Assembly: GCA_022360595.1 (NCBI GenBank)
Contig: JAKSCN010000672.1
Span: forward strand, 1-35,278
Direction of reading: 5' to 3'
DNA length: 35,278 bases
Source of the DNA: Chromatiales bacterium
Lineage (GTDB): Bacteria > Pseudomonadota > Gammaproteobacteria > Chromatiales > Chromatiaceae
Every line of letters begins with the position of its first letter. Position 1 is the stretch's first letter. Positions 26,904 to 28,963 of this stretch are shown here, one piece after another. The notes below the pieces were generated by a model that saw only the letters and a list, made by a program, of their open reading frames with translations, did not search any database and was not told where the DNA came from. A program made the translations under genes and the position numbers.

Positions 26904-27758
26904 GTGTCCATTGAGTCAGGTGTTCTCTATGTGGTGGCAACACCTATCGGTAACCTCGGCGATCTCACTCCCCGCGCTGAACAAATCCTTAAGTCAGTTG
27001 CATTAATTGCAGCAGAGGATACCCGCCATAGCAAACCATTGCTACACCATTTCGGCATAACTACGCCAATGCTCGCATATCACGAGCATAATGAGCGTCA
27101 GGTCATGGATAAATTGCTGCAGCGGTTACGGGAGGGTGATGATATCGCGCTGATTTCCGATGCCGGTACACCACTCATCAGCGACCCCGGTTTTCCCCTG
27201 GTGCGAGCTTGTCGTGAGCAAGGTGTGAGGGTGAGCCCTGTTCCAGGTGTCAGTGCCGCTATCACTGCCCTGTCGGTGGCGGGGTTGCCCACTGACCGTT
27301 TTGTTTTCGAAGGTTTTCCGGCGCGCACTCAAGCGGCCCGGCTCAAGCAGTTTGAAGCGCTGCAAGATGAACAGCGTACCATTGTGTTCTATGAATCAAG
27401 CCACCGGGTTTTGGTGTCGCTGCAAGATATTGCCCAGGCCTTTGGTGCAGATCGGCTGGTGGTACTGGCGAGGGAGTTGACCAAGACCTACGAGACCGTA
27501 TTGGTTGATCCGGTTGGAAAGCTGATTGAGCAGGTCCGGCAGGACAGTATGCAGCAGAAGGGGGAATTTGTACTGCTGATCGCGGGATACAGCCGTACGC
27601 AAGAGGATGGGCTTGAGCCCCAGGTTGAACGGGTCATGCGGATTCTGTTGGCTGAAATGCCGGTGAAGCAGGCGGCGGCGATTGCGGCGAAACTGACGGG
27701 AGAAAAGAAGAACAAGCTTTATCAGCAGGCGTTGGTTTGGCAGAAAGAGTCATCTTAG
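26904..27758 (+). CDS. rsmI: 16S rRNA (cytidine-2'-O)-methyltransferase RsmI
   Basis: GVLYVVATPIGNLGDLTPRAEQILKSVALIAAEDTRHSKPLLHHFGI, ISDAGTPLISDPGFPLVRAC, VPGVSAAITALSVAGLPTDRFVFEGFPAR. Confidence 0.97.
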   Translation: MSIESGVLYVVATPIGNLGDLTPRAEQILKSVALIAAEDTRHSKPLLHHFGITTPMLAYHEHNERQVMDKLLQRLREGDDIALISDAGTPLISDPGFPLVRACREQGVRVSPVPGVSAAITALSVAGLPTDRFVFEGFPARTQAARLKQFEALQDEQRTIVFYESSHRVLVSLQDIAQAFGADRLVVLARELTKTYETVLVDPVGKLIEQVRQDSMQQKGEFVLLIAGYSRTQEDGLEPQVERVMRILLAEMPVKQAAAIAAKLTGEKKNKLYQQALVWQKESS

Positions 27759-27789
27759 GGCCTGTTAACAGGCCCTAAGATGACTCTTT
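27744..27789. repeat. 46-bp perfect palindrome containing the rsmI stop codon and two TTAGGGCCTGTTAACA copies
   Basis: AAAGAGTCATCTTAGGGCCTGTTAACAGGCCCTAAGATGACTCTTT equals its own reverse complement. Confidence 0.95.
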
Positions 27790-27850: not shown

Positions 27851-27973
27851 TCAGGCGAAAATGTTAACCAGTGCTGCGGCGACAGTCAGCATGATGGCTG
27901 ACTCTATGAGCACCGGAGACCATTCGAAAATTGGTGGATTGGTAATCTCCGCTTTTGCTGATGCTAGACACAT
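27851..27973 (-). CDS. Putative 40-aa membrane micro-protein
   Basis: Manual minus-strand translation: MCLASAKAEITNPPIFEWSPVLIESAIMLTVAAALVNIFA*; preceded by AAGGAG 6 nt before the ATG; hydrophobic C-terminal helix candidate. Below the ORF-track size cutoff. Confidence 0.5.
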   Translation of the reverse strand: MCLASAKAEITNPPIFEWSPVLIESAIMLTVAAALVNIFA

Positions 27974-27993
27974 GTCAATCTCCTTGTATAATT
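27965..27993 (+). promoter_or_regulatory. Putative sigma-70 promoter driving the RHH gene
   Basis: TAGACA - 17 nt - TATAAT on the + strand; overlaps the start region of the divergent micro-ORF. Confidence 0.55.
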
Positions 27994-28074
27994 GTTGCAT
28001 CACTATTGTGAGTTATTTGTATACACAAATGATGGCACTTGAATGTGGAAAAATCAACCACTCAAGGTGAAGAA

Positions 28075-28230
28075 ATGTCAAAAAATAAGATCATCAACAT
28101 CAGAATTGAGTCAGAGCTCAAAAAACAGGCGAAGAAGTTGGCTCAGGAGGAGGGGCGGTCTCTCTCCAATTGGGTGACATGGTTGATTCAGCGGGAAGTA
28201 AAAGAGAAAGGGCAGCAGGATACCAAGTAG
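28075..28230 (+). CDS. Ribbon-helix-helix (Arc/CopG-like) DNA-binding protein
   Basis: MSKNKIINIRIESELKKQAKKLAQEEGRSLSNWVTWLIQREVKEKGQQDTK; beta strand (IINIRI) plus two helices typical of RHH; RBS AAGGTGA. Confidence 0.82.
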   Translation: MSKNKIINIRIESELKKQAKKLAQEEGRSLSNWVTWLIQREVKEKGQQDTK

Positions 28231-28384: not shown

Positions 28385-28963
28385 TTAGGCGAAGTTGCTG
28401 GCTACATAATCCCAATTGATGATGTTCCAGATCTCTTCCAGATACTTCGGACGCGCGTTGCGGTAGTCGATGTAGTAGGCGTGTTCCCAAACATCGATGG
28501 TCAGCAGAGGTGTTTTGCCATCGGTCATCGGGTTAGCGGCATTTGAGGTGTTGACGATCTCAACACTACCGTCAGCGTTTTTCACCAGCCAAGTCCAGCC
28601 AGAACCGAAGTTGGTCGCAGCGGAGGTGGAGAACTTCTGCTTGAACTCGTCGAAAGAGCCGAAAGCGCTGTTGATAGCGTCGGCCAGTGCGCCAGTGGGT
28701 GCGCCACCGCCGTTTGGACTCAGGCAGTTCCAGTAGAAAGTGTGATTCCATACTTGAGCTGCGTTGTTGAAAATACCACCAGCGGACTTCATGACGATCT
28801 CTTCCAGTGAGGCGTTTTCAAACTCAGTACCAGGAACCAGATTGTTCAGGTTGGTGACATAAGTCTGATGATGCTTGCCGTAGTGGTACTCGATAGTCTC
28901 TTGTGAAATGGTGGGTTCGAGTGCGTTTTTTTCGTAAGGCAAAGCGGGTAATTCATGTGCCAT
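28385..28963 (-). CDS. sodB: Superoxide dismutase, Fe-type
   Basis: 192 aa; [92 protein letters not shown]. Confidence 0.96.

Follow-up and report, generated by a model that had tools for sequence, protein, structure and literature searches.

Two small divergent genes between rsmI and sodB

The window, that is, the whole 35,278-nucleotide stretch of DNA analysed here, is contig C239 of a 3.8-Mb gammaproteobacterial genome that is 94% complete, and its rsmI (26904-27758)-sodB (28385-28963) interval contains two small genes that are transcribed away from each other (Table 1). The minus-strand ORF of 40 amino acids preceded by AAGGAG, which was reported by the first-pass annotation, was found as described in both the sequence and the ORF list; its ATG occupies 27973-27971, its stop codon ends at 27851, and its translation is MCLASAKAEITNPPIFEWSPVLIESAIMLTVAAALVNIFA. 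The gap to a divergent gene for a 51-aa ribbon-helix-helix (RHH) protein, given earlier as about 100 bp, measures 101 bp between the two ATGs. The RHH ORF, which also has an ATG start, begins MSKNKIINIRIESELKK, and its full translation is MSKNKIINIRIESELKKQAKKLAQEEGRSLSNWVTWLIQREVKEKGQQDTK. On the other side of the microprotein gene, the inverted repeat at the end of rsmI has the loop TGTTAACA, includes the rsmI stop codon, and resembles a terminator on both strands. Its predicted RNA fold has an energy of -38.6 kcal/mol (z -10.8), and the repeat probably ends both the rsmI and the microprotein transcripts. An Rfam search of the window gave no match.

Table 1. Features of the rsmI-sodB interval (positions in the window)
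Feature	Position	Strand	Basis
Inverted repeat, perfect, 19 bp, terminator-like, at end of rsmI, 3' of microprotein gene	27744-27789		Direct reading; RNA fold
Microprotein gene, 40 aa, stop included	27851-27973	-	ORF, divergent relatives, purifying selection, AlphaFold2, hydrophobic segment
Shine-Dalgarno AAGGAG of microprotein gene, 6 nt 5' of ATG	27980-27985	-	Direct reading
Operator palindrome ATTTGTATACACAAAT, core 28018-28027, proposed RHH binding site	28015-28030		Conserved core in relatives
-10-like CATCAT of putative microprotein promoter	28029-28034	-	Matches conserved -10 column of relatives; weak match in window
-35-like TTGATT of putative microprotein promoter, 17-bp spacer to -10	28052-28057	-	At conserved TTG position of relatives
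Shine-Dalgarno AAGGTG of RHH gene, 5 nt 5' of ATG	28064-28069	+	Direct reading
RHH DNA-binding protein gene, 51 aa, stop included	28075-28230	+	NCBIfam, Pfam, model closest to Arc repressor

A search with the single 40-aa sequence detected only the microprotein itself, the matches in other genomes (E 0.08-0.9) being at chance level, because the microprotein diverges fast; its identity to relatives is 23-41%. The aligned members follow the consensus MNxxxAKxELxxxPPxVxxxxLxxEAxxxV..., in which M1 and A6 are invariant and E9, L10, and E24 are conserved in at least 90%. Members are 39-43 aa long and carry a single hydrophobic helix (mean best 17-residue hydropathy 2.35). The AlphaFold2 model of the window protein (mean pLDDT 88) has helices at residues 3-11 and 18-39, and the hydrophobic segment spans residues 20-36. 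Lysine and arginine are absent after residue 22 in 43 of 44 members, whereas residues 1-22 contain 2.9 of them on average; by the positive-inside rule the protein is therefore predicted to be N-in, with a cytoplasmic N-terminus and a single, tail-anchoring span. When 38 members were scanned against Pfam and NCBIfam, only stray single matches (E 0.065-0.079) were obtained, and there was no match in the PDB; the family is absent from these three libraries.

The RHH protein passed the cut-offs of NCBIfam NF041551 (32.4 bits, cut-off 30), the family of the YlcI/YnfO RHH proteins of E. coli prophages, and of Pfam HicB (23.3, cut-off 21), and fell just under that of RHH_5 (25.1 versus 26). Its AlphaFold2 model (mean pLDDT 81) was closest to Arc repressor (TM 0.71, probability 1.00), although the Foldseek E-value was only 0.05 for so short a chain. 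The N-terminal strand is unformed in the monomer model, as would be expected for a dimeric fold. In all homologues, which are approximately 47-54 aa in length, there is little beyond the bare DNA-binding core. Minimal RHH repressors of the Arc/CopG type are about 45-53 aa long, consist of the bare RHH fold, and autoregulate at short palindromes, often at tandem sites; the protein encoded here resembles them in being a bare core whose best model matches are Arc chains. The literature on YlcI/YnfO is essentially empty, and the papers found describe no microprotein partner for this family.

Conservation and co-inheritance of the pair

The RHH alignment was scanned against 85,462 species genomes, which yielded 51 loci; close RHH relatives account for 50. 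A divergent microprotein gene was present at 41 of these 50 loci, which were found by RHH sequence alone; at one locus the contig breaks off, and the remaining eight lacked the microprotein. The carriers of the pair, marine and symbiotic gammaproteobacteria, are Chromatiales-type sulfur oxidisers and symbionts, Halieaceae, and Arenicellales. Within the window genome's own family, which, judging from identical sequences, also includes the Solemya velum gill symbiont (G008, locus L043), six relatives each have a 39-40 aa ORF of the same build divergent from the RHH gene. In profile searches that started from the microprotein side, matches at E below 1e-8 were obtained in 16 of the 212 genomes of the own family, a class sample of 370 genomes added five more, and the Halieaceae contributed 19 of 140. 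The RHH gene lay divergently beside 38 of these 40 strong matches, and the five class genomes with the microprotein were the five with the strongest RHH matches. The distance matrices of the two proteins correlate with r 0.52, whereas permutations reached at most 0.19. Over 18 pairs, pooled pN and pS were 0.19 and 0.56 for the microprotein and 0.095 and 0.59 for the RHH protein; on these ratios, both genes are under purifying selection.

These comparisons bear on whether the ORF is a gene at all. One could envisage that it is spurious and that the conserved element is merely the regulatory region of the RHH gene, given that the window copy taken by itself has few near relatives and belongs to no database family. 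Such a reading is barely credible and is already refuted by the comparative data: microprotein profile E-values reach 1e-17 in other genomes, residues are conserved with dN well below dS, the length is constant at 39-43 aa and the start is kept across diverse lineages, and a stand-alone second copy of the microprotein gene exists (see below). Stops, frameshifts, or absent conservation in relatives had been named at the outset as grounds for abandoning the ORF; the relatives were examined for these, and the ORF withstood the comparison. A chance ORF is ruled out by conservation and selection. Judged from its profile relatives, which in many genomes have an RHH homologue as divergent neighbour, and from its substitution pattern, the micro-ORF is a real coding gene, well beyond chance, and the comparative data support the view that the membrane microprotein and the divergent RHH gene are a functional pair.

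The spacer palindrome and the promoters

The palindrome in the window belongs to a motif shared by the relatives. TGTRTAYACA, or a form with one mismatch, was found in 49 of 53 spacer regions, compared with about one expected from mononucleotide shuffles. The longer motif AATGTRTAYACATT had 38 close matches in 446 kb of loci; every one fell in the spacer upstream of the RHH gene and none elsewhere in those loci. A reversed control pattern gave four matches overall. The exact core occurs only once in the 35-kb window (0.03 expected), and a pattern search found the exact 16-mer once in the whole window genome. Two sites are present in some lineages, about 40 bp apart in Halieaceae and 11 bp apart in several Chromatiales-type loci. 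The median distance from the operator centre to the microprotein ATG is 33 bp; in the window it is 49 bp rather than approximately 33. Loci that have the RHH gene but no microprotein mostly keep the operator, as expected if the RHH protein controls its own gene.

In the relatives, a conserved -35 column (TTG, 30 bp before the core) and a TATA-like -10 column lie just upstream of the operator, and the operator would therefore overlie the start of transcription. A site over the transcription start is a textbook position for repression. The corresponding microprotein promoter of the window is probably TTGATT (28057-28052)/CATCAT (28034-28029), a weak match. The first-pass annotation had instead placed a promoter for the RHH gene, TAGACA-N17-TATAAT, over the start of the micro-ORF, and proposed interlocking control signals. 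The two hexamers are present, but at 27965-27992 with a spacer of 16 nt and not 17, and one such promoter was found where shuffles of the 700-bp region gave a mean of 1.0; a match that frequent in shuffled sequence is no evidence on its own. We rejected this promoter as being at chance level. The conserved signals, namely the operator and the minus-strand promoter, lie not over the micro-ORF start but in the 101-bp spacer.

The sole other site in the window genome with a single mismatch to the operator is on contig C85 (7549-7564; G000, L119:1501-1516), upstream of a 147-aa ORF that has a signal-peptide-like start and is located near a reverse-transcriptase-like ORF. On the strength of this site, the 147-aa ORF is a possible second target of the RHH protein.

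Incomplete loci and the likely function of the pair

Natural deletions of either partner were found among the relatives, along with one microprotein copy that appears to be regulated in trans. The microprotein and operator are kept in G038 (locus L093; assembly 94% complete) and the microprotein, with a GTG start, in G713, where both the RHH gene and the operator are gone at the Halieaceae position; the RHH gene was not found genome-wide in either, as far as metagenome assemblies, which may miss RHH genes, allow such calls. The G713 copy may be decaying. A Dyp-type peroxidase-like ORF lies downstream at L093. G592 has a second, stand-alone microprotein gene (L128) with no RHH gene adjacent; an operator precedes the ATG of this copy by about 32 bp, and the only RHH gene in this genome sits at the first copy, which hints that the second is controlled in trans. 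Conversely, the RHH gene stands without the microprotein at L025, L028, L034, L035, L042, and L070 of the L030 synteny group, with a stop-broken microprotein remnant beside it at L035; no intact microprotein copy was found elsewhere in the genomes of these loci. Because the RHH gene has been kept without the microprotein in this clade, it may have further targets. In a sister genome of the same genus (G001; L150), an Hsp20-like gene occupies the space between rsmI and sodB and the pair is missing; the module was thus acquired or lost in one piece.

The first-pass annotation left two options, a toxin/antitoxin-like pair or a regulated membrane microprotein. Under the former, the microprotein would be a membrane toxin that the RHH protein restrains, either through protein binding, as by a type II antitoxin, or through transcriptional repression only. 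A small hydrophobic protein adjoining a small RHH protein, a patchy distribution (16 of 212 genomes in the own family, for example), and the RHH-only loci and decayed remnant at L035, which resemble orphan antitoxins, are all in keeping with this idea, and the pair shares an RHH domain, small size, and a palindromic site with type II systems whose antitoxins are RelB-, ParD-, or VapB-like. Unlike in those systems, however, the RHH protein lacks the C-terminal extension by which RHH antitoxins hold their toxins, the genes are divergent at every locus with both and do not form one operon, and the microprotein is unrelated to known toxins. Moreover, the microprotein occurs where no RHH gene was found genome-wide (in G038 and, with its possibly decaying copy, G713), plasmid and phage records contained no copies of the pair, its position beside phoU has long been kept in Halieaceae chromosomes, and there was no PADLOC match. 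Two defining features of a classical type II system, the toxin-binding region and the shared operon, thus fail, and type II control fits poorly with stand-alone microproteins; we regard the toxin-antitoxin explanation as disfavoured and, in either form, unlikely. The regulated-microprotein option fits clearly better, because the RHH protein has little more than the DNA-binding core and because a few genomes retain the microprotein although no RHH gene was found in them. Plasmid and phage records, having returned no match, likewise gave no sign of a mobile-element or phage origin.

We therefore favour, with reasonable confidence, a two-gene module in which a minimal repressor of the Arc/CopG type controls both itself and a divergent, N-in, single-span membrane effector. 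RHH dimers would bind TGTRTAYACA just downstream of the microprotein -10 box and block transcription, and the same operator, lying in the upstream region of the RHH gene, would let the RHH protein limit its own synthesis. Upon derepression, by some signal or by simple dilution, the 40-aa protein would insert so that its short AKxEL helix stays on the cytoplasmic side and one helix, bearing the conserved Glu, spans the membrane, where the protein would most likely act on a larger membrane complex, either as an accessory or as a modulator. What is observed comprises the genes, how they are conserved and inherited together, the selection on them, and the position and spacing of the operator; binding of the RHH protein to the operator, repression as the direction of control, the topology, and the effector role are what we infer from these sequences.

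CydX, AcrZ, MgtS, and YohP have fewer than 50 aa and one membrane helix, and small regulators of this kind mostly associate with larger complexes or modulate them (PMC11539335, PMC7267776, PMC12719787). The microprotein is like them in size and in its single membrane helix; it differs from them in having a divergent RHH gene of its own together with an operator, and no sequence relationship was detected. The module also differs from Arc/CopG systems, in that its RHH protein has a divergent membrane microprotein as partner and the operator TGTRTAYACA, and in that it is chromosomal in free-living and symbiotic gammaproteobacteria, with no example among phage or plasmid records. A search of the literature outside subscription holdings revealed no report of such a pair or operator. 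The pair does not have the look of a chance ORF; it appears to be a genuine regulatory module of two genes that has not been described. Genome annotation often overlooks small membrane proteins, and how they are controlled is seldom apparent; in this case the comparison of genomes yields the microprotein family, its dedicated regulator, and the operator motif and spacing together, and the motif makes the microprotein findable in genomes where gene callers skip it.

Repressor and microprotein might also be coupled more directly. The cytoplasmic AKxEL helix could bind the RHH protein, tether it at the membrane, and lift repression, which would create a feedback or sensing circuit. The conserved cytoplasmic motif (A6, E9, L10), predicted to be helical, and the co-divergence of the two proteins are consistent with this; co-divergence, however, is also expected from shared ancestry, and the microprotein occurs alone in G038 and G713 and the RHH gene alone in the L030-type clade. 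We consider this anti-repressor loop improbable. It is doubtful, too, that the pair is a self-contained switch in which the helix of the tail-anchored microprotein captures the RHH protein, so that a state of the membrane or an event there directly sets transcription of the pair and of other genes bearing the operator, possibly in connection with phosphate uptake where the pair lies beside pst-phoU; if true, this would be an as yet undescribed type of membrane-to-DNA switch.

The genes adjoining the pair differ between lineages, and hence no membrane partner is indicated, except for the recurring phoU position in some of them. At most Halieaceae loci, at L044 (Arenicellales), and at L023, a pst phosphate-transport operon has the pair at its 3' end, in most cases next to phoU; the pst and phoU names were assigned by inspection of sequence and not by family search. 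The arrangement at L023 is the inverse of that in Halieaceae, and the Halieaceae, L044, and L023 groups cluster in the tree of the pair; the adjacency may be an old linkage or the result of repeated insertion, and, as it recurs in one clade, it may reflect shared ancestry. The link to phosphate is suggestive only, a lead and not evidence. The pst-phoU arrangement was seen at L033, L044, L023, L058, L060, L064-L071, and other Halieaceae loci, and opposite orientations occur among them.
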